From Nevskia sp. (GTDB taxonomy: Bacteria; Pseudomonadota; Gammaproteobacteria; Nevskiales; Nevskiaceae), in contig JAKFUK010000005.1 of NCBI GenBank assembly GCA_021732745.1, positions 124,001 through 188,000 of the forward strand: a stretch of DNA of 64,000 nt, in the 5' to 3' direction. A program made the position numbers and the translations under genes. Under the pieces are notes generated by a model that was given only the letters and a program-made list of their open reading frames with translations, was not told where the DNA came from and ran no database searches. This document shows, one piece after another, positions 18,365-61,931 of this stretch; position 1 is the stretch's first letter; each line of letters opens with the position of its first letter.

Positions 18365-18544
18365 ATGACTTACGCGCAATTGACCGTATGTAAAGACGAG
18401 CCTTCCGACCGCATGGTCGATCAAGTCTCGAAAATATTTACCGCCGAAAGAGCGAAAGTCCCAGTAGTGCAAGGCAGTGCAAGTCGAAATGAAACGGCTG
18501 TTCATGAGGCAAAGCCAATGAAGTCGAAAGAGCGGAAGAAGTGA
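18365..18544 (+). CDS. Small protein of unknown function
   Basis: A 59-residue cytoplasmic protein (MTYAQLTVCKDEPSDRMVDQ...) ending in a Lys/Glu-rich tail (KPMKSKERKK). The start at 18365 is chosen because GGAGGG sits seven bases upstream; the frame is open further back but without a ribosome site. Its stop overlaps the next gene's GTG start in a GTGA junction, so the two are probably translated together. I do not recognise a family. Base composition is lower in GC than the flanks. Confidence 0.55.
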   Translation: MTYAQLTVCKDEPSDRMVDQVSKIFTAERAKVPVVQGSASRNETAVHEAKPMKSKERKK

Positions 18545-19437
18545 GCCGACTGGCAGCGATTGCGCTAGTTGTCGGTCTTGTTTGCCCCAACGCGTGGGGG
18601 CAACCCACAGTTCCCTCACATGGTTCCGGGTTTCCCGAAACTGCTCCAACCCGGCAGGGTCAGGTAGACCCTCAGAAGTGCGGCACTAGCGATGCGCAGA
18701 AAGAACCGACGGATTCTGTCACTGTCGTAAATCCTTCTCTGTATAAACTCGGCTCCGGCAATGGCGCTGAGCCAGCCAAGAGTTACGACAAAGAAAATCT
18801 GAATGTCTACACACGTGCTGCTGAAGCTGCCGAAAGCCAAGCGCTTGCAAGCTGGTTGGGATTTGCTTCCGGCATTATTGTTACGATGCTTGTTTGGATG
18901 ACTTTCCGAGAAACTCAAAAACAGGTGGTTGCCTCCGAGCGACAGGCCACTATCGCTATTCAAAATGCTAGGCCTTACGTTTTTTTCTTTCGTACTGTTA
19001 AGAAATCCGATGATGACGTTTCTCATCCAAACAGCGGATATGAAAACGTACTTGGTTTTAATTTGATGAACCACGGCAGCACTCCCGCCTTCGTGTCGAA
19101 AATTAAACACAATGTTGGGGTGTTTTCGACGAACATGCCGCCAAGCGCTGCACTTATCCCGGAATCGGAATCCGTCGAAATGCCCAGAGGGTCGGTGCTT
19201 TCTGGTGGAGAGCTCTGGCCGAGAAAGGCACATAGACATAGCTCGATAACGCAAGAAATGGTCGATGAGGTTAACGCCGATCAATCGAAGATGATTTATC
19301 TGTATGGGGAAATTACTTATAGAGATGCTTTTATTGGTGCTGATACAACCTACAAGACTAGATTTTGTAGATACTTCAACGGTAACCAATTTGTTGTGGG
19401 TAATCTGTCCGACCCAAAGCAAAACGACTACAGCTAA
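18541..19437 (+). CDS. Membrane protein of unknown function in an AT-richer island
   Basis: A 298-residue protein with a GTG start overlapping the preceding stop. It has a signal-peptide-like N-terminus (AAIALVVGLVCPNAWG), a polar stretch, then one clear membrane helix (LASWLGFASGIIVTMLVWMTF, about 104-124) followed by RETQKQVVASERQATIAIQNARPYVFF. That pattern of one or two helices, an ERQ repeat and ARPYV/RAYV, followed by a soluble beta-rich domain, is common in uncharacterised membrane proteins. The soluble part ends in CRYFNGNQFVVGN. Codon use and base composition differ from neighbours, so acquisition by transfer is likely. Confidence 0.7.
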   Translation: MSRLAAIALVVGLVCPNAWGQPTVPSHGSGFPETAPTRQGQVDPQKCGTSDAQKEPTDSVTVVNPSLYKLGSGNGAEPAKSYDKENLNVYTRAAEAAESQALASWLGFASGIIVTMLVWMTFRETQKQVVASERQATIAIQNARPYVFFFRTVKKSDDDVSHPNSGYENVLGFNLMNHGSTPAFVSKIKHNVGVFSTNMPPSAALIPESESVEMPRGSVLSGGELWPRKAHRHSSITQEMVDEVNADQSKMIYLYGEITYRDAFIGADTTYKTRFCRYFNGNQFVVGNLSDPKQNDYS

Positions 19438-36588: not shown

Positions 36589-38076
36589 ATGTCTCAGGTC
36601 TGCCCGCTGCCGAAGTCCCGAGCGCTTGCCGCCGCCGTGATCCTGAGTGTTGCGAGTGCCGCGCTGGCCGCCCCGACGACGCCGGCCAAACTGCCGGTGC
36701 CGCTCGACCCCAGCCTGTTCGTCGGCATGCTCAAGGGCTACAAGGATTGCCGCGCCAAGTACGAAGAAATGGACGCCCGCATCGACGCCGCCGGTGTCCG
36801 CGACGGAAGCTACTACCGGGTGCCGGGCTTCCCGTACCTGCGCACCGATCGCTACGCCGCCTCGTTCAAGGACGAGGTTACCGGGCTCGACGAAGTGGCC
36901 GGCTGGACCCGGCGCATGCGCGAATTCGATCAGGAAGCGCGCGAGTTCGAATACCGCAACCTCGGCATGTCCGAGCAGGACATCGGCACCTGGCGTTATG
37001 ACCTGCTGTCCTGCGGCGGCGGCCTCGCCAATCTGGAGTTGTTCGAGGACGCCAACCTCGCCTTCCTGCGCAAGCAGGTTGCCCCGGGCAGCGAGTACGT
37101 GGCCAAACCGGCAAAGCTCACTGACGCTCGGCGCAAGGCCATCGCCACCCATCAGGCCGAGGTGCTCAAGCGCTTCAGCGGCGAACTGCCGGCCGCTGCC
37201 GCACCGCTCAAGCTCTGGGCCGCGAAGCCGGTCGAGGACCTGAGCCTGATCGCCAAGGGTTATGGCAATGCCATTGCCGACGAACTCGGCGTGCCGGCGC
37301 TGATCGATTCGCAATGGCGCGCCTTTGCCGAAATGCACGCCCCGGCGCTGTGGATCGAAACCGCCGCTGCCCGCGACCAGCCGGGCATGCCGATCACGAA
37401 GGACGGCGCATTCACCGTCGATCCCGCGCAGCCGCGCATGCACTACCAGATCACCTTCACCCGGTTTAAGGGTAAGCCGCTGGCCGAGATCAACTACTTC
37501 ATCTGGTTCGCCGGCCGCGATGGCAACACCGGTGCGCTCGACAGCCTGATCTGGCGCGTCACGCTCGACGCTAATGCCCATCCGCTGGTCTTTGAAGCCG
37601 TCAACGCCAGCGGCCGCGATCACCTGTGGTTCGCGGCCCAGCCGCTGAAGCGTCGCGACGCCGGCAAGAAGGACTTGGCCGATGCCGCCCTGTTCCCGCA
37701 GGCCGAGCCGATCGCCTGGCCGGTCGCCTTGCGGATTGCCGCCGGTAGCCATGACTTGCTGCGGGTCGTGCCGCTGGCCACCGCCACCGCGTCCGGCAGC
37801 AGTACGCCCTACGAACTGCGTCGTTACGAGGAAGTCTTCACGCTCGCCACCAGCGACGGCAAGACCCGCAGCCTGTACGACGCTGGCGGCGTGATTCCCG
37901 GTGTTCGCGATGATAAGCAGGCGGGGCTATTCGGGGATCAAGTCGCGACGCCCGGCGCGTTGCATGTGCTGGGCCGCGTGCCGGTGGCCTATGTCGGCAA
38001 CCGCCATTTCGATGATGCCGACCGGCTCGACCAGCAGTTGGTCCTGCCGGCGTCGAAAGTCGCGACCGCGCCCTGA
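36589..38076 (+). CDS. Secreted protein of unknown function
   Basis: A 495-residue protein with a signal peptide (cleaved near ALAAPTT, residue 27). The N-terminal half is helical and polar (YKDCRAKYEEMDARIDAAG..., TRRMREFDQEAREFEYRNLGM); the C-terminal half is beta-rich, with HYQITFTRFKGKPLAEINYFIWF, GALDSLIWRVTLD and NASGRDHLWFAAQPL. The last part has histidine and tryptophan motifs that look like a conserved core, but I cannot name a family. It likely works in the periplasm. It stands alone upstream of the catalase-like gene. Confidence 0.75.
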   Translation: MSQVCPLPKSRALAAAVILSVASAALAAPTTPAKLPVPLDPSLFVGMLKGYKDCRAKYEEMDARIDAAGVRDGSYYRVPGFPYLRTDRYAASFKDEVTGLDEVAGWTRRMREFDQEAREFEYRNLGMSEQDIGTWRYDLLSCGGGLANLELFEDANLAFLRKQVAPGSEYVAKPAKLTDARRKAIATHQAEVLKRFSGELPAAAAPLKLWAAKPVEDLSLIAKGYGNAIADELGVPALIDSQWRAFAEMHAPALWIETAAARDQPGMPITKDGAFTVDPAQPRMHYQITFTRFKGKPLAEINYFIWFAGRDGNTGALDSLIWRVTLDANAHPLVFEAVNASGRDHLWFAAQPLKRRDAGKKDLADAALFPQAEPIAWPVALRIAAGSHDLLRVVPLATATASGSSTPYELRRYEEVFTLATSDGKTRSLYDAGGVIPGVRDDKQAGLFGDQVATPGALHVLGRVPVAYVGNRHFDDADRLDQQLVLPASKVATAP

Positions 38077-38209: not shown

Positions 38210-39241
38210 ATGCTCGTTTCCCTGTCGTATCCAGCCTTGAGCCGACGCTGCCCCTTGGCCCTGGCGGTTGTCGCGGCACTGCTCGGCACGCCGACGGCCA
38301 TCGCGGCCGAAGCCGCCGCCACGCCCAGCGTTGCCGTGCAGACCGTCGACACGCTGGAAAAGCTCGCCGGTGGCCCGCACGCCGGATTCCGCGCCAACCA
38401 TGCCAAGGGCGTGCTGGCCACAGGCAAGTTCGTCGCCACGGCCGAAGCGAAGAAGCTGAGCAAGGCGGCACACCTTCAGGGTGCTGCGGTGCCGGTGATC
38501 GTCCGCTACTCGAACGCCACCGGCGTGCCGAACCTGCCGGACGCCAATCCCAACGCCAGCCCGCACGGCATCGCCATCCGCTTCCAGCTGCCGGAAGGCA
38601 GGGTCACCGACATCGTCAGCATTTCTTTCGACGGCTTTCCGGCCGCCACCCTGGAAGATTTTCTCGGCCTGCTGAACGCGATCGCCGCCAGCGGTCCGGA
38701 TGCGAAGAAGCCGACGCCGGTCGAAGCCTTCCTCGGCGGCCATCCGGCAGCCAAGGCTTTCGCCACCGCGCCGAAGCCGGCCCCGGTCAGCTACGCGACC
38801 TTGCCGTTTTTCGGCGTCAACGCCTTCAAGTTCACCAATGCGGCGGGTGCCTCGGTCTACACGCGCTATCGCATCGTGCCGGTGGCGGGCGATCAGCGCC
38901 TGAGCGATGCCGACGCCGCCAAGGCTGCGCCGAACTACCTCGTCGATGATCTCGCTGCGCGCCTCGCCAAGGGGCCGATCGCCTATTCGATCAAGGTCCA
39001 GCTGGCGAAGGACGGCGACGACGTCAACGATGCCACCAAGGTCTGGGACAGCAAGCACGTGGAAGTGACGCTCGGCACCCTGACCATCGACGCGCTGCTG
39101 CCGGACGGCGCCAAGGCGGAAAAGAGCCTGTTCTTCAATCCGCTGCTGCTGGTCGACGGCATTGCGCCGTCAGCCGACCCGATCCTGCTGGCGCGGCCGG
39201 GGGCTTATGCGGTCAGTGTTGGTCGGCGGGTTGGCAAGTAA
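38210..39241 (+). CDS. Periplasmic catalase-like peroxidase (SrpA-type)
   Basis: A 343-residue member of the catalase-related peroxidases, shorter than true catalases. A signal peptide (to about IAAEA, residue 33) sends it to the periplasm. The distal haem histidine is His64 in GFRANHAKGVLATGKF; VPVIVRYSNATGVPNLPD, SPHGIAIRFQL and the proximal tyrosine in RPGAYAVSVGRR complete the haem site. It should reduce peroxides with an unknown donor. The integron cassette array begins only a few bases past its stop codon. Confidence 0.9.
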   Translation: MLVSLSYPALSRRCPLALAVVAALLGTPTAIAAEAAATPSVAVQTVDTLEKLAGGPHAGFRANHAKGVLATGKFVATAEAKKLSKAAHLQGAAVPVIVRYSNATGVPNLPDANPNASPHGIAIRFQLPEGRVTDIVSISFDGFPAATLEDFLGLLNAIAASGPDAKKPTPVEAFLGGHPAAKAFATAPKPAPVSYATLPFFGVNAFKFTNAAGASVYTRYRIVPVAGDQRLSDADAAKAAPNYLVDDLAARLAKGPIAYSIKVQLAKDGDDVNDATKVWDSKHVEVTLGTLTIDALLPDGAKAEKSLFFNPLLLVDGIAPSADPILLARPGAYAVSVGRRVGK

Positions 39242-39260
39242 AGGCGCGTTATGCATACGT

Positions 39261-39797
39261 ATGCGTAAACCTTCCCGCCAAATGCCAGCAGCACCGACCC
39301 GTCGGGTTTCTGCAGTGGCTCGTGCGTTCGGATACCTTGCTCTTGCAGCTTTTTGCGGTGCCGTGGCATATGCGGCGTGGTGCTATCCGATTCCTACGTT
39401 CGTAATCCTCGCGCTGTTGTCAGTGGGCGTGCTTTACGAGCAGCGGCGTATGAAGCGTATTGCATTATCTCGGCCACATGTCGGCATTTGTGAGTTTGCA
39501 CGCTCATTCAACTGTGCTGAAACAGATACATGGGTAATCCGCGCGGTTTACGAGGAGCTTGGCGCTTACCTTAGTTCCAATAATGCTCCATTTCCGTTAC
39601 TCGCCTCCGACAATCTGTTCTCCAACTACAGCCTAAACATTGAATCTCTAGACCTTCAGGAGGTTGCTGAGGCCGCAGCAGCCAGAGCTGGACGCTCAAT
39701 GAAAGACACGGCAGCCAATCCATACTTCGACAAAGTCAACACTGTTTCTGATCTGGTTCATTTCTTAAACGCACAACCAAGGGTATGTCATGCCTAA
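39261..39797 (+). CDS. Cassette 1: membrane-anchored acyl-carrier-like protein
   Basis: A 178-residue protein starting 13 bp inside cassette 1. It has two adjacent membrane helices (FGYLALAAFCGAVAYAAWC and IPTFVILALLSVGVLYE, about 19-58), then a cytoplasmic domain. The last 55 residues read like an acyl carrier protein: SNYSLNIESLDLQEVAEAAA resembles the DSL-DxVEL phosphopantetheine motif, followed by a charged loop and VNTVSDLVHFLNAQ, the usual TVGDLVxxL ending. The serine is kept but the preceding Asp is Glu. It resembles the DUF1493 ACP-like group. The stop codon lies within the attC R'' site, a common cassette feature. A function in lipid or surface modification is only a guess. Confidence 0.7.
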   Translation: MRKPSRQMPAAPTRRVSAVARAFGYLALAAFCGAVAYAAWCYPIPTFVILALLSVGVLYEQRRMKRIALSRPHVGICEFARSFNCAETDTWVIRAVYEELGAYLSSNNAPFPLLASDNLFSNYSLNIESLDLQEVAEAAAARAGRSMKDTAANPYFDKVNTVSDLVHFLNAQPRVCHA

Positions 39798-39869
39798 CAA
39801 GGCATTGCACCGGAAAAACCCGCTTTCGCTTCGCTACGACGGTTTTTCCGGTGGACTTAGGCGTTATAC
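39792..39869 (+). other. attC recombination site 1
   Basis: It starts with R'' GCCTAAC (39792-39798) and ends with R' GTTATAC (39863-39869). The central stem is a perfect 13-bp inverted repeat, CACCGGAAAAACC / GGTTTTTCCGGTG, around a CGCTTTCGCTTCGCTACG-like loop typical of attC. The crossover is expected between G39863 and T39864. Confidence 0.85.
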
Positions 39870-39876
39870 CTAGAAG

Positions 39877-40365
39877 ATGAGATGCGTCGCCGTCTTTGTC
39901 TTGGCAGTCCTCGCCACCATAATTGTCCATGCCGATTCCATGAGCACCCCAAAATCAGAAGCTGAAGAAGTCTTGAGCGCAATGCTCCCGTTTGGGCAAC
40001 AGATGCTCGAGAAACACGGGGAGTTCTATCCGTATGGTGGTGCCACGACCATCGACGGCAAGGTGATAAGCGTCGGTGGCTACGAAGGTTCTGAGCATCC
40101 GCCATCTCAAAACGTCATTGATCTAATATCTTCAGGGTTCCGTGCCGGAGCGAAGGCAGGTACCTACAAGGCCACCGGCCTCTTCTACGATGTCCGCGTC
40201 ATTCCGCCAGGCACCTCGGAAAAAACAGATGCCATTGCAGTAGCGTTAGATCATCGAGACAACTATTCGGTGATCGTCTATTTCCCGTATAAAATCACAG
40301 ACGGTAGAGTGAAAATGGGAGCTGCGTTTGCGTCGCCCGGCGAGAACAAGGTCTTCGTCAAGTGA
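39877..40365 (+). CDS. Cassette 2: small exported protein of unknown function
   Basis: A 162-residue protein starting 13 bp inside cassette 2, the same distance as in cassette 1. The N-terminus is a signal peptide (VFVLAVLATIIVHADS). The rest (EEVLSAMLPFGQQMLEKHGEFYPYGG, YEGSEHPPSQNVIDLI, DVRVIPPGTSEKTDAIAVALDHRDNYSVIVYFPY) looks like a widespread uncharacterised bacterial family that normally lacks a signal peptide; here one seems to have been added. No catalytic motif is obvious. Confidence 0.75.
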   Translation: MRCVAVFVLAVLATIIVHADSMSTPKSEAEEVLSAMLPFGQQMLEKHGEFYPYGGATTIDGKVISVGGYEGSEHPPSQNVIDLISSGFRAGAKAGTYKATGLFYDVRVIPPGTSEKTDAIAVALDHRDNYSVIVYFPYKITDGRVKMGAAFASPGENKVFVK

Positions 40366-40372
40366 GCCGCAG

Positions 40373-40444
40373 GTATAACTATCGCTTCAAGACCGACGGC
40401 CCTGCCTCCGCTTCGCTGCGGTAGGGTCGCGGCTCAAGTTGGCA
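40373..40444 (+). other. attC recombination site 2
   Basis: R'' GTATAAC (40373-40379) is the exact complement of the R' at the 5' end of its own cassette (GTTATAC, 39863). A branched stem with CCGCTTCGCTGCGG at the tip follows, and the right end is CTCAAGTTGGCA (GTT at 40438). The complementarity between two ends 494 bp apart is the strongest evidence for a true cassette. Confidence 0.85.
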
Positions 40445-40465
40445 TTCTGCTATTCGGAGAGACGA

Positions 40466-40999
40466 ATGAGAGCGCACCATGTCTTCGTTGCGGTCTTGCT
40501 CAGCGGGTGTGCGAGCCAGACTACTCCGGACAGCCCATACAACAGAGGCGTCCACGCATACCAAAGCAAGAATTACAGCGAAGCGGCAGCACAGTGGACA
40601 ACCGCAGGGGAGGCAGGGGATATCAGCGCCAAGAACAACCTGGCGTTCCTCATGTTCAATGGTCTTGGAGTGGAGAAGCAGCAAGAGAAAGCATTGACTC
40701 TCTGGCAATCGGCGGCGATGCGAGGTCATGCAGAATCTCAATGGCATTTGGGCGATGCATATGAGAAAGGACAGGCCGTAGAGATGGACCAAGCCGTGGC
40801 GTATGCCTGGTACCGGTGCGCTATCGCCAGCGCCGAAGTTCATCTCAAGGGGGCAGCAGACGCTACTGAGGAGCAGATCGCTGCCGATGCGCGCAAATCC
40901 ATCATCAGTCTCACAGATCGACTGACACAGGCGGAATTGCAGCGTGGGCAGCAACTCGCAACCGAATTTATCGGCAAGTATGCCGTCGGCGTACCCTGA
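40466..40999 (+). CDS. Cassette 3: Sel1-repeat lipoprotein
   Basis: A 177-residue protein with a short lipoprotein signal (VFVAVLLSGCASQ, Cys near residue 13) and two to three Sel1-like repeats (AYQSKNYSEAAAQWTTAGEAGDISAKNNLAFLMFNG, EKALTLWQSAAMRGHAESQWHLGDAYEKG, DQAVAYAWYRCAIA). Sel1 repeats bind protein partners. GGAGAG lies six bases before the ATG. It should be exported and membrane-anchored; partner unknown. Its stop overlaps the start of a degenerate attC-like sequence. Confidence 0.82.
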   Translation: MRAHHVFVAVLLSGCASQTTPDSPYNRGVHAYQSKNYSEAAAQWTTAGEAGDISAKNNLAFLMFNGLGVEKQQEKALTLWQSAAMRGHAESQWHLGDAYEKGQAVEMDQAVAYAWYRCAIASAEVHLKGAADATEEQIAADARKSIISLTDRLTQAELQRGQQLATEFIGKYAVGVP

Positions 41000-41080
41000 C
41001 CTGTCGTTCCAGCCGAAGTGGCAGCCGCCATTTCACTCTGGATTTTCAGCCACGCGCCGCAACGGCCCGCTCAGTTCAAA
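40994..41080 (+). other. Degenerate attC-like sequence 3
   Basis: CCCTGACCTGTCGTTCCAGCC at its left and CGGCCCGCTCAGTTCAAA at its right resemble common attC ends (CCTAAC..TCGT..AGCCGA and CGGCTTAACTCAG-GTT). The core sites deviate, and R'' does not pair with the cassette's 5' end GTTGGCA. It may be inactive or a false match. Confidence 0.35.
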
Positions 41081-41092
41081 CGGCACCACGAT

Positions 41093-44000
41093 TCAGGCTG
41101 CAAGCGCGGCCTGAACCTTCTGAGCACTCGGCGAGCCATTGGCCTTCAGCTCCTGCGCAAACAGCGCGACGCGCCATTCCTCGATCACCCAGCGCGCCGG
41201 GCGGAACGGTCCGGGCAGCTTCGCGAGCAAGGGTTTGAGTTGGGCGAGCATCTCCAGATCGCGCTGCGGCTTGTGGGGTAGTCGGTCGGTGCGGATCGTC
41301 GCGGCTTTCAGATAGATGCCGATACGCGGCCAGATGTCGTCGGGGATCTGGTCGATGAAGCCGGGCGCGAACAGCGTCTGCAACTGGTTGCGCAGGTCGC
41401 TGTTGGCGTCGGGCCAGGGCTTGGCGATCGTGTCGAGCTTCTTGCGCAGGTCCATGCCGGTGGTGAGCCAGGCACAGACTTCTTCGAGCCGTTTCGCCGC
41501 TTCGCGACCGAATTCGCCGCGCTTGGCGAGTGCGGCGTGGAAGGCCTGCTCGTCGCGGATGGCTTCGGGGTTCCAGTAGCTGCGGGCAGCGCGTTCGGCG
41601 ACCTGCAAGGCCAGTTGTTCGGCGGACAGGCCGGTCTGCGCCAGCGAGATGCCGAGCTTGGCGCGCGCGGTTCTGGCCAGATCCTTCAGGCGATCGGCGA
41701 CCCGTGCCAGCAGCAAGGCTTGCGTGCCGATCGCGTGCGCCTTGGCGGCTGCCTCGGCGGACTCGAACAGCTTCAGGCCGATCCTTTCATTGGCGCTGAC
41801 CAGCGCCGGATAGGCCTTCGCCGCGCCGACCATGATGTGCGCCGGCATTGCGCCGAAATCCCAGTCGAGCACCACTTCGCGGGTCCAGCGCTTGGCTTCT
41901 GCGCTGGTTTCGGCACGCTTGGTCAGTTCGGTGCGCGCCGCGCCACCGAAGCGCTGCTGCAGGGCAAGCAGGGATTCGGCTTCGCCGAGCGGCTTGCCAT
42001 CGGCGGCGATCAGCAGCAGACGGGGCTTGAGGTGCGCTTCGAGCTTGGCCGGGGCGAAATCGTCCGGCTTCAGCAGCACGCCGTTCATGTCCTTGAACCG
42101 CGCGCAGACCGCGTCCAGCAGTTCGCCCGAACTCGGGTTCGCGGCATTGGCGATGGCATTCGCGTACTCGGCAGCCGGCGTGCACAGGCGGCGCAGGTTC
42201 ATCGGCAGGCTGCGGATCAGGGCTTCGATCTTGGCCGGCAGCAGACCGGGTACCAGCCAGTCGAAACGCGCGGCAGGCAAGGTGAAAAGTTGCGCGATCG
42301 GGATTGCGAACGTGACGCCGTCCTCGTCGGTGCCCGGGTCGTGCGAATAGCTCAAGCAGAGGCGGGTGCCGGCGAGGTCGAGATGGTCCGGGAACAGGCT
42401 GGCGACGTCGGCATTGGCGCCGGGCTTGAGCGCGTCGGCTTCGCCCATCAGCAATTGTTTCTGCAGCGCCGGTTCACGGCGCAGACCATTTTTCAGGCCG
42501 ACGGTCGTGCAGATGTCGGCCGGCAGCAGCGTGTCGTAGAAGTCGAAGAACTGACTTTCATCGGCCAGCAGATCAGGCCGCCGCAGCCGCGCTTCCTTGT
42601 CGCGCACTTCGTCGCACAGCGCGAGGTTCTTTTCCAGGAACGCCGGCTTGTTCGGCATGTCGCCGCGCACCAGCGCTTCGCGGATGAAGATCTCGCGGGC
42701 CTTGGCCGGCTCGTCCTTCCCGTAGTGGCGCGCCCGACGCAGCACCTGCATGCCGAACAGGGTCACCACCTCCATCGCTGTGACTTCGCCGCGCTCGGCA
42801 TGCCAGACCGGGTCCTGAAGCACGCGCTTGACCAGATGCGGGGCGACATCGGCCAGCCATTCCGGCTCGATTTCGGCGTTGATGCGGGCGAACAGCTGGC
42901 TGGTCTGCGACAGCTGCGCGCTCATCATCCACAGCGGCGGCTTCTTCGACAGCACCGAGCCCGGAAACACCTTGAAGCGCCGGCCGCGGGGTCCGTTGAA
43001 CTCCGGCTTTTCCGGCATCTTCTGGCCGATGTTGTCGATCAAGCCGGCCAGCAGGCATTTGTGGATGTCGGTGTAGAGCTTGTCGAGCGGCTGCGTGGTC
43101 TTGGGCTTGTCGGCGTCCTGTTTGCCGAGCATGTCGAGAATCTGCTTGTAGACCGACTCCCATTCCTCCATACGCAGATAGCTGACGAAGTGCTCCTTGC
43201 ACAGCTTGCGCAACTGGCGATTGGAAGCGTTGGCACTCCACTGCTGGTAGCGCGCCCAGAGGTTGAGCAGGGTCAGGTAATCGGACTTCGGATGCCGCCA
43301 TTCGGCGTGCTTGAGCCGCGCGGCGTTCTGCTGGTCCATAGGTACGTCGTGCGGGTCCTGCACGGAGAGTGCCGCCGCCAGCACCCAGACGTGTTCGCGA
43401 TGGGCGGTGCCCCGGCCGGCCTGGGCGATGCGGGCGATGCGCGGGTCGAGCGGCAGTCGTCCCAGCTCGCGGCCGAGCGGGGTGATGCGCTTGTCGTCAT
43501 CCAATGCGCCGAGCGTTTGCAGCAGGCGATAGCCGTCGGCGATGTGGCGGCCTTCGGGGGCGTCCAGCCAGGGGAACTCCTCGACATCGCCCAAGCCGAG
43601 CGTGGCCATCTGCAGGATCACGCCGGCCAGATTGGCGCGCAGGATTTCCGGATCGGTGAACGGTGGCCGGGTGACGAAATTCGGCTCGTCGTACAGGCGC
43701 AGGCAGACGCCGGGGCCGACGCGGCCGCAGCGGCCGGCACGCTGGTTGGCCGCCGCCTGCGACACCGCTTCGATCTGCAACTGCTGCACGCCGAGGCGCG
43801 GCGAGAAGCGGTTGATGCGCGCCGTGCCGGTGTCGATCACATAACGGATGCCGGGCACGGTCACCGAGGTTTCGGCGACATTGGTGGCCAGCACGATGCG
43901 CGGTGCGCCGCCGCTGGAAAACACCTTGTCCTGCTTTTCGGCCGGCAGCCGTGAGTACAGCGGCAGCACTTCGGCGCGCGGGAAGCGGCCGGGCAGGCTG

Positions 44001-44941
44001 CGGGCCAGGTCGTTGATCTCGCGCTCGCCGGGCAGGAAGACCAGGGTGTCGCCGACTTTTCCGGACTGCCACAGGCTGTCGATGCCGGACGCGACCTGCC
44101 CTTCGAGATCGTCGTCCTGATCCGGCTCGCGGTAGCGCATCTCGACCGGATAAGTCCGGCCTTCGACCAGCAGGATCGGCGCGGGCTCGCCGCGACTGTT
44201 GGCGAAATGCTTGGCCAGCTTTTCCGGATCGAGTGTGGCCGAGGTGATGATCAGTTTCAGCTCCGGCCGGCGCGGCAGCAGGCGCTTCAGCCAGCCAAGC
44301 AGGAAGTCGATGTTCAGACTGCGCTCGTGGGCCTCGTCGATGATGATCGTGTCGTAGGCCAGCAGTTCGCGGTCGCGGGTCAGTTCGGCGAGCAGGATGC
44401 CGTCGGTCATCAGCTTGACCAGCGAACGCTCGGACATGCGGCGATCGAAACGGGTCTCGAAGCCGACCAGTTCGCCGACCTTGGTGTCGAGTTCACTGGC
44501 GATGCGGTTGGCCACACTGCGCGCTGCCAGACGGCGCGGCTGGGTATGGCCGATCAGGCCGCGCGTGCCGCGACCGAGTTCCAGGCAGAGCTTCGGCAGC
44601 TGGGTGGTCTTGCCAGAGCCGGTTTCGCCGCACAGCACCACCACCTGATGCTCGGCGATCGCTTTCAGCAGCTCGTCCTTGGCTTGGACGACCGGCAGCT
44701 CGGCCGGGTAGTTGATGGTTTCGGGCCGCAGCCGCAGACGGTTCTCGGCGGCCAGCAAGGCGGCTTCGACATCCTTCTCGAAGCGCGCCACATCGAACTT
44801 CGGATTGTTGCGGGCACCGGCCGCCGAACGACCGAGCCGCGCGGCGTCGCGCAGCAGCAATCGGTCGCGGATCAGGTCGAATCGGGCTTGCAGCGAGGGC
44901 GTGGCAGTCACGGGCGGCGGGACAGCGGGAGCAGCCGCCAT
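41093..44941 (-). CDS. hrpA: ATP-dependent RNA helicase HrpA
   Basis: A 1282-residue DEAH-box helicase, close to the usual 1300. Motifs: GETGSGKTT (105-113), DEAH (202-205), SAT in ITSATLD, and QRAGRCGRVGPG. OB-fold/HA2 regions and the long DUF3418 C-terminal domain follow. It acts on mRNA and stalled ribosomes in related bacteria. The start is the ATG at 44941; in-frame starts up to 45025 would add 28 residues without similarity to the family. Confidence 0.95.
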   Translation of the reverse strand: MAAAPAVPPPVTATPSLQARFDLIRDRLLLRDAARLGRSAAGARNNPKFDVARFEKDVEAALLAAENRLRLRPETINYPAELPVVQAKDELLKAIAEHQVVVLCGETGSGKTTQLPKLCLELGRGTRGLIGHTQPRRLAARSVANRIASELDTKVGELVGFETRFDRRMSERSLVKLMTDGILLAELTRDRELLAYDTIIIDEAHERSLNIDFLLGWLKRLLPRRPELKLIITSATLDPEKLAKHFANSRGEPAPILLVEGRTYPVEMRYREPDQDDDLEGQVASGIDSLWQSGKVGDTLVFLPGEREINDLARSLPGRFPRAEVLPLYSRLPAEKQDKVFSSGGAPRIVLATNVAETSVTVPGIRYVIDTGTARINRFSPRLGVQQLQIEAVSQAAANQRAGRCGRVGPGVCLRLYDEPNFVTRPPFTDPEILRANLAGVILQMATLGLGDVEEFPWLDAPEGRHIADGYRLLQTLGALDDDKRITPLGRELGRLPLDPRIARIAQAGRGTAHREHVWVLAAALSVQDPHDVPMDQQNAARLKHAEWRHPKSDYLTLLNLWARYQQWSANASNRQLRKLCKEHFVSYLRMEEWESVYKQILDMLGKQDADKPKTTQPLDKLYTDIHKCLLAGLIDNIGQKMPEKPEFNGPRGRRFKVFPGSVLSKKPPLWMMSAQLSQTSQLFARINAEIEPEWLADVAPHLVKRVLQDPVWHAERGEVTAMEVVTLFGMQVLRRARHYGKDEPAKAREIFIREALVRGDMPNKPAFLEKNLALCDEVRDKEARLRRPDLLADESQFFDFYDTLLPADICTTVGLKNGLRREPALQKQLLMGEADALKPGANADVASLFPDHLDLAGTRLCLSYSHDPGTDEDGVTFAIPIAQLFTLPAARFDWLVPGLLPAKIEALIRSLPMNLRRLCTPAAEYANAIANAANPSSGELLDAVCARFKDMNGVLLKPDDFAPAKLEAHLKPRLLLIAADGKPLGEAESLLALQQRFGGAARTELTKRAETSAEAKRWTREVVLDWDFGAMPAHIMVGAAKAYPALVSANERIGLKLFESAEAAAKAHAIGTQALLLARVADRLKDLARTARAKLGISLAQTGLSAEQLALQVAERAARSYWNPEAIRDEQAFHAALAKRGEFGREAAKRLEEVCAWLTTGMDLRKKLDTIAKPWPDANSDLRNQLQTLFAPGFIDQIPDDIWPRIGIYLKAATIRTDRLPHKPQRDLEMLAQLKPLLAKLPGPFRPARWVIEEWRVALFAQELKANGSPSAQKVQAALAA

Positions 44942-45038
44942 GATAAGTCGACAGCAGACCGCGCCCACGGTTGGCTTCAGGGTGACAGCACCGCACAATC
45001 CGACGGCATAACTTGGATACATCATTCAGGGGAACCCG

Positions 45039-61001: not shown

Positions 61002-61931
61002 TTACGCGTAGCGCCCGTACAAATAGAGTGTTACCTCGTGCTGACGTCGTAAGCTGAGTCCTCTCATCACGATGCCACCGGACGTGACAGCTCGTTGCAT
61101 CTCCTGCATCGCAGCGGCGATTCGTCCGCCATTGAGATGATCAGCTACACGCCTCAATCGCCCACCCGGGTTGTACGCAAAGCTCGTAAGCGCATCGTAT
61201 TGATGCTGATATATTCCAATCGAAACCAGATTTCGCACCAGTCTTTCGTACTGTTCGATGATGATGGAGAGTAGGCGGACTTCCTGTGCTCGAGTCAGGT
61301 CCACGAGAGACTTGTGATGTTTGGCAAACTCTTGCGCTTCTTCGTTCTTCAAGCTTGCTGCAAGTGAAATTTCTTGCGCGACTTTCGATTCCAGTCCGAG
61401 CGACAGCATATCCGACTCGATGGTTGTCGCACTTCGTTCCTTCATGTCATATCCTGGGCCTAAAGTGACTCCGCTAGCTCCCCGAGGCCAATGCAAGCGG
61501 TTGCTGACACCGGCTAAAGTCTCATGCGAGTAAATGAACTGTAGACCCGAAACCGACATTGACCATGCAGATGCAGGACGCAGAGGATCAGAGCGAAGAG
61601 GGGCTCGAGTACGAGCAACAGCGATTGGCACTATAAAGCTGCCAATCACGTTCATCAGATCGCGGATGCGATCTGGCGATGGCGGGACGTTAGCAAGCGC
61701 ATGGATTGATGGAATTCGAGTATTTGCCGACAGGGCACTAAGCGTCTTATCCCCCGCAATTCCATCAGGAACCAGTCCTCGCTGTATCTGAAAGGCTCGC
61801 ACCGCATTTGCTGTACTTGTTCCGTAAACGCCATCTGTAGCGAGGGCATATCCGAGTGCGACAAGCGTCGCCTGAAGTTGCTTCACTTCCGTTCCACGCG
61901 ATCCATGCTTGAACGTCATATCAGAATCCAT
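61002..61931 (-). CDS. Peptidoglycan-binding lysozyme-like hydrolase
   Basis: A 309-residue protein with a PG_binding_1 domain at the N-terminus (GTEVKQLQATLVALGYALATDGVYGTSTANAVRAFQ, about 13-68), a linker, and a lysozyme-like domain from about 125: SHETLAGVSNRLHWPRGASG followed by VTLGPGYDMKERS. Glu137 and Thr156 stand where T4-type and pesticin-type lysozymes keep their catalytic Glu and Thr. There is no signal peptide, so it would need a holin, a type VI or another route to reach peptidoglycan. Base composition is lower in GC than the flanks. The LprI-type gene follows on the same strand. Confidence 0.8.
   Translation of the reverse strand: MDSDMTFKHGSRGTEVKQLQATLVALGYALATDGVYGTSTANAVRAFQIQRGLVPDGIAGDKTLSALSANTRIPSIHALANVPPSPDRIRDLMNVIGSFIVPIAVARTRAPLRSDPLRPASAWSMSVSGLQFIYSHETLAGVSNRLHWPRGASGVTLGPGYDMKERSATTIESDMLSLGLESKVAQEISLAASLKNEEAQEFAKHHKSLVDLTRAQEVRLLSIIIEQYERLVRNLVSIGIYQHQYDALTSFAYNPGGRLRRVADHLNGGRIAAAMQEMQRAVTSGGIVMRGLSLRRQHEVTLYLYGRYA

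Follow-up and report, generated by a model that had tools for sequence, protein, structure and literature searches.

The stretch between a catalase-like gene and the hrpA-type RNA helicase gene in the genome studied here carries two attC sites of integron gene cassettes. Both sites are almost certainly genuine, and the stretch is almost certainly a small CALIN, inserted relative to L040, a Lysobacteraceae metagenome assembly in which the two host genes lie next to each other. The window, i.e., the whole stretch of DNA that was analyzed, is 64,000 nucleotides long and corresponds to C5:124001–188000 of a six-contig, 3.99-Mb genome with an estimated completeness of 91%. The features of the locus, in window coordinates, are as follows.

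38210–39241, + strand: catalase-like gene, host flank (PF00199, E 5.9e-27); its orthologue adjoins hrpA in L040/G011 and L123/G008
39248–39254, + strand: left boundary of cassette 1, GTTATGC, 6/7 complementary to R″ of attC1, with the presumed G/TT crossover point
39261–39797, + strand: cassette 1 gene, 178 aa, N-terminus hydrophobic by eye; TAA stop inside R″ of attC1
39792–39869, + strand: attC1, 78 nt; R″ GCCTAAC, R′ GTTATAC; R1 55.1 bits, E 4e-10
39863–39870, + strand: boundary between cassettes 1 and 2, GTTATACC, which is the R′ box of attC1; exact reverse complement of R″ of attC2, GGTATAAC, at 40372–40379
39877–40365, + strand: cassette 2 gene, 162 aa, signal-like N-terminus by eye
40373–40450, + strand: attC2, degenerate; R″ GTATAAC, R′ ATTCTGC without GTT; R1 42.1 bits, E 3.4e-7
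40466–40999, + strand: gene 3, Sel1-repeat putative lipoprotein (PF08238, E 3.6e-11 for 40439–40996)
41093–45025, − strand: hrpA-type RNA helicase, host flank (PF11898, PF07717, PF04408)

The attC sites were searched for with a covariance model, R1, built from a gap-free alignment of ten 78-nt attC sites from five loci in four relatives’ genomes. The training sites were taken from attC arrays beside the relatives’ integron integrases, with the window excluded, and the stems were drawn by hand according to attC anatomy; the E-values are rough, as stated by the covariance tool. At both positions where an initial annotation of the DNA had predicted attC sites, this independently trained model gave the matches listed above, and the third-best match in the 64 kb has an E-value of 0.29. 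The two sites lie 581 bp apart on the same strand and, as predicted, have a like hairpin tip, CGCTTCGCT, in common. The second site was found where it had been placed, but its right end is at 40450 rather than 40444.

When applied to 32 relatives’ loci, R1 gave 118 matches at E ≤ 0.01, a number that includes the training sites and in which loci overlap and some sites are also read on the reverse strand. Weight matrices for the two arms were made from 56 distinct sites picked by hand from these matches, with duplicates, sites read on the opposite strand, and most of the weaker ones excluded. With these matrices, attC1 has the top score among 127,958 positions for the left as well as the right arm; attC2 comes twelfth for the left arm and 2064th for the right arm (score −10.0). 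Folded as DNA, attC1 is more stable than shuffled sequences on both strands (z −5.25 and −5.85; 0 of 200 shuffles as good on each), and attC2 folds no better than shuffles (z 0.32 and −1.16; 117 and 30 of 200 fold at least as well). The attC site of an integron gene cassette carries GTT at the crossover of R′. This triplet is present in attC1, and attC2 reads ATT, which is a statement about sequence and not about recombination activity. Because R′ of attC2 lacks GTT, cassette 2 is probably frozen, that is, no longer excisable.

The complementarity of the cassette boundaries provides separate evidence, since the covariance model ignores the relation between neighboring sites. In an integron gene cassette, the 5′ boundary is complementary to the R″ of the cassette’s own attC. 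The two boxes that delimit cassette 2, with 500 bp between them, are complementary at eight of eight positions, exactly as the initial annotation had stated; given the GTT/AAC core, a match over the five further bases would be expected by chance about once in 1000 cases (own arithmetic). Cassette 1 shows the claimed relation with a single mismatch, as its boundary differs at one position from the complement of R″ of attC1 (GTTAGGC). Chance would produce one mismatch in four further bases in about 5% of cases (own arithmetic), and this boundary is, therefore, weak evidence when taken alone. Counted from the G of the boundary, the start codon is 13 nt away in cassette 1 (39261) but 14 nt away in cassette 2 (39877), meaning that the distance of 13 bp originally given for both cassettes applies to the first one.

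Only 6 nt separate the stop of the catalase-like gene from the boundary of cassette 1. The three genes between the catalase-like gene and hrpA share one direction, with hrpA on the opposite strand, and the GC content of the insert (39248–41078) is 54% versus 67% for the catalase-like gene, in agreement with the initial description of an AT-richer trio between GC-rich neighbors. Searches of the window with Rfam (at gathering thresholds) and ARAGORN found nothing, and promoter and terminator scans of the window yielded no more than they did for shuffles.

Among the matches listed for the catalase-like protein, from which records of its own genome may have been omitted, the nearest named relative comes from L040 (83% protein identity). 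The distance from the stop of the catalase-like gene to the stop of hrpA is 18 nt in L040, without an insert, compared with 1851 nt in the window, and the similarity of the window to L040 ends at the stop of the catalase-like gene. The comparison with relatives that the initial annotation had suggested thus revealed an empty site. The alignment coordinates of a congener, G011, are identical to those of L040; since they coincide, the two are probably the same genome and count as one piece of evidence. The left edge of the insert is set at the stop of the catalase-like gene, and its right edge is not placed.

This site was compared in 23 sequences: besides that of L040, there were 22 from hrpA, either loci or fragments, and a number of the fragments end short of the hrpA 3′ end. 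The hrpA gene is present in 17 of the 18 genomes of the genus set, including the genome studied here. For 15 of the 17 congeners, the hrpA 3′ end was available together with no more than about 1.5 kb of the sequence that follows; no alignment to 39242–41085 at E ≤ 1e-5 was obtained for any of these. An orthologue of the gene at 36589–38076 adjoins hrpA in six congeners (G002, G005, G010, G014, G015, and G016), and the stretches fetched from these gave no match to the catalase-like gene. In G008 (L123:1127–1497), the spacer between the catalase-like gene and hrpA is occupied by different DNA of about 370 nt, which by eye looks like a small gene and has no attC match; going by this genome, insertions may also reach the spacer in other ways. 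Neither L040 nor L123 has an attC match at E ≤ 1. With no similarity to the insert beside hrpA in these 15 congeners and a GC content below that of the catalase-like gene, the three genes do not show the vertical synteny and host-like composition that the initial annotation had set against a cassette array.

The proteins encoded by the two cassettes have no Pfam or NCBIfam match above cut-off. The cassette-1 protein was found in none of the 84 other genomes of the order at E ≤ 0.001, and in plasmids, it has one distant homologue, on a plasmid of Pseudoalteromonas sp. THAF3 (34.8%, E 1e-13). This homologue has no adjoining R1 match, the sole match in the stretch (E 0.0087) being 4.4 kb away. 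The cassette-2 protein was found in four of 85 genomes of the order, its own included. Its homologue in G015 (E 3.4e-13) lies between two attC sites in an integrase-bearing array (L163: attC at 1395–1463, open reading frame at 1471–1938, attC at 1933–1990), and the homologue in G021 (E 2.2e-9) adjoins an integrase gene and has an attC site at its end (L164: open reading frame at 1519–2001, attC at 2013–2111). One TAA was counted in the matched stretch of G021; as the frame at 1519–2001 is open, this TAA should precede its ATG. Hence, in both genomes, the cassette-2 homologue is itself a cassette of an integrase-bearing integron. The remaining homologue, in G017, is weak (E 1.5e-4), with no attC at E ≤ 1 in the fetched stretch. 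An alignment of the cassette-2 protein with two homologues has 18 invariant columns, the homologues being 23 to 30% identical to the window’s protein and lacking its signal-like N-terminal stretch. Viral contigs gave no match to this protein, and plasmids gave two weak ones (28.7% and 31.3%).

Gene 3, for which the lipobox was recognized and the start codon picked by eye (the frame is open from 40439), is inserted relative to L040 and is an unproven candidate for a cassette. Downstream of it, there is no R1 match up to E 10, and the best right-arm score of the weight matrix in 40900–41095 is negative. A left-arm look-alike at 40994 (10.5 bits; 6 of 127,958 positions score as high) was considered as a truncated third attC and rejected, as it has no right arm. 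A third attC is also disfavored by the gene-3 homologue in G075, which has a similar 3′ stretch, as judged by eye, and no attC at E ≤ 0.1. Homologues of gene 3 occur in 19 of 85 genomes at E ≤ 1e-8, the own genome counted, the closest being those in G075 (71%; the stretch that matches contains one TGA) and G003 (46%). Twenty gene-3 loci were scanned, from 29 matches, and an attC site at E ≤ 0.1 was found solely at the window’s own. As its homologues have no attC in their fetched flanks, gene 3, though inserted, is not established as a cassette.

The search of the genome for further attC sites that had been proposed revealed six loci besides the window (L151–L156), with one to four sites each. 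R1 gave 13 matches at E ≤ 10, of which 11 have E ≤ 0.01; they fall in seven places once C4:317025 (E 5.98) is left out as a chance match. C2:10359 (E 0.38) was retained because its R″ exactly complements the neighboring R′. The first look in this search scored 150 of 9607 candidates, and more sites may exist.

Clusters (R1): the window (two sites); C4:228 kb (two sites); C2:10–11 kb (three sites and a fourth at E 0.38)
Single sites (R1): C1:1398594; C4:142060; C5:89059; C1:676973

The match at C5:89059 spans model positions 7 to 72 only and is without full R boxes. Judged by eye, the R′/R″ junctions within clusters are exactly complementary in five of five cases, counting that of the window, and the C2 cluster contains three of them in succession. 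One or more R1 matches at E ≤ 0.001 are present in 15 of the 18 genomes of the genus set.

The initial annotation had noted the lack of an integrase in the window, and at the family cut-off, this extends to the assembled genome. A search of the whole assembly with TIGR02249 gave a best score of 30.7 bits versus a cut-off of 265, and contig C5 has nothing at E ≤ 0.001; the genome’s two integrase-model matches are on other contigs and far under the cut-off. In the relatives set, in which the own genome is counted, 38 of 61 genomes have an integrase match above cut-off, among them 10 of the 17 congeners, two of these (G006 and G010) with an in-frame stop. The general phage-integrase family (tyrosine recombinases) is represented at five places in the genome, and none of the four that were compared reaches the XerC or XerD cut-off. 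Both XerC and XerD would be expected in bacteria of this group, and part of the genome is, therefore, probably missing from the assembly. Since the assembly is 91% complete and XerC and XerD are not among these four places, the absence of an integrase from the genome is not proven.

These data are best explained by the insertion of a two-cassette array between host genes, most likely by an integron integrase at a non-canonical site, and we consider this explanation likely to be correct. It builds on features that are established, i.e., the two attC sites, the complementarity of a cassette boundary, the foreign composition, the empty site of a relative, and cassette-2 homologues in integrase-bearing integrons. 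The array would have entered the short spacer between the catalase-like gene and hrpA through an integron integrase, most likely acting in trans on folded attC sites, and the target would be a non-canonical, attG-type genomic site beside the stop of the catalase-like gene. In this scenario, an integrase and not another route would have placed the array, and the cassettes would have come as circles. Gene 3 may have been part of this array and since been deprived of its attC, or it may have been downstream of the catalase-like gene before the cassettes were. The cassettes are codirectional with the catalase-like gene, and any expression of them would come from read-through. Points against this explanation are the right end of the insert, the fold and right arm of attC2, the 6/7 boundary, the lack of an integrase above cut-off, and the Pseudoalteromonas homologue without an adjoining R1 match. 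The covariance matches and the empty site make the original proposal, a CALIN or a cassette insertion at a secondary site, the best reading; it was supported but incomplete regarding gene 3, the GTT of attC2, and the six further attC loci.

Under an arrival by another route, the cassettes would have been joined at a different place, and homologous or illegitimate recombination would then have brought them in together with gene 3 as a single block. The right boundary, which has no R′ box, and the gene-3 relatives without attC in their fetched flanks would fit such a history, but the left boundary is of the G/TT form and complementary to R″ of attC1 at 6/7 positions, a match that by itself has a chance of about 5%. 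We consider block arrival unlikely. Another conceivable origin is a complete integron (intI and attI) that once resided here and of which the cassettes alone remain. The few nucleotides between the catalase-like gene and cassette 1 leave no space for attI or intI, the spacer of L040 contains neither, and the genome’s integrase-model matches are weak and on other contigs; even with integron integrases in 10 of 17 congeners, a relic of this kind is very improbable. We give practically no credence to the idea that the genes are normal ones of vertical descent and that their hairpins only look like attC sites: the poor fold of attC2 agrees with it, but it is opposed by the model matches, the boundary match, the empty site, the composition, the cassette homologues, and the absence of the insert from L040 and the congeners examined.

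Loot et al. (2024, Nat Microbiol) are said to have demonstrated cassette insertion at attG sites experimentally. The insertion described here is similar in that its chromosomal position is neither attI nor attC and a relative has the empty site; it differs in being natural, and the likeness concerns position and empty site, not a target consensus. Scatter of cassettes by attG-type insertion in Escherichia coli experiments is also cited in PMC12444791. According to the same paper, about half of Xanthomonas genomes have CALINs at a distance from the resident integron; in the well-sampled species, these occupy seven places on the chromosome. Those outside ilvD are comparable to the present case in bacterial group, in being small chromosomal arrays, and in occurring in some genomes without intI; the present case differs in its catalase-like/hrpA locus and in the seven attC loci of the genome, four of them single-site. 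By the default of IntegronFinder 2.0, a CALIN has at least two attC sites, 2961 CALINs being present in its RefSeq set, and single attC sites can be real (PMC9024848). The window has its two R1 attC sites on one strand, with no integrase above cut-off nearby and without the intI and attI beside the array of a complete integron. It does not differ fundamentally from other CALINs, being small and having one damaged attC. We found no description of this locus in the literature searched, and one may exist elsewhere.

The locus is an unremarkable but clear case of an element of known type, a small CALIN between host genes, and this assignment is well supported. It documents a natural insertion of cassettes at a place that belongs to no integron and is empty in a relative. 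The damaged attC2 suggests how cassette genes become fixed. With its seven attC places, the genome could serve as a test case for natural attG-type scatter of cassettes. More tentatively, in a reading that we consider less likely than not, the genome may lack a resident integron and have gathered cassettes singly or a few at a time at these places via an outside integrase, with some of the places (e.g., behind a pyruvate dehydrogenase E2-type gene) acting as genus-wide, repeated landing sites, which would amount to spread without a platform.

The region behind the E2-type gene, which was named by eye, has attC sites in the own genome (L152:5078–6436) and in G015; in G011, there is a different small open reading frame (by eye) with a similar left boundary and no attC match (other loci: L189:220–673 and L190:about 900–1311). 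This region is perhaps a repeated landing place. Within the window, two further low-GC open frames occur at 18541–19437 and 61002–61931 (GC 0.49 and 0.53) among 42 non-overlapping frames of at least 170 aa, which are mechanical open reading frames and not gene calls. Finally, an open frame of 240 aa with a GC content of 36% is located at L152:5714–6436, directly behind a cassette attC and among neighbors of about 67% GC.
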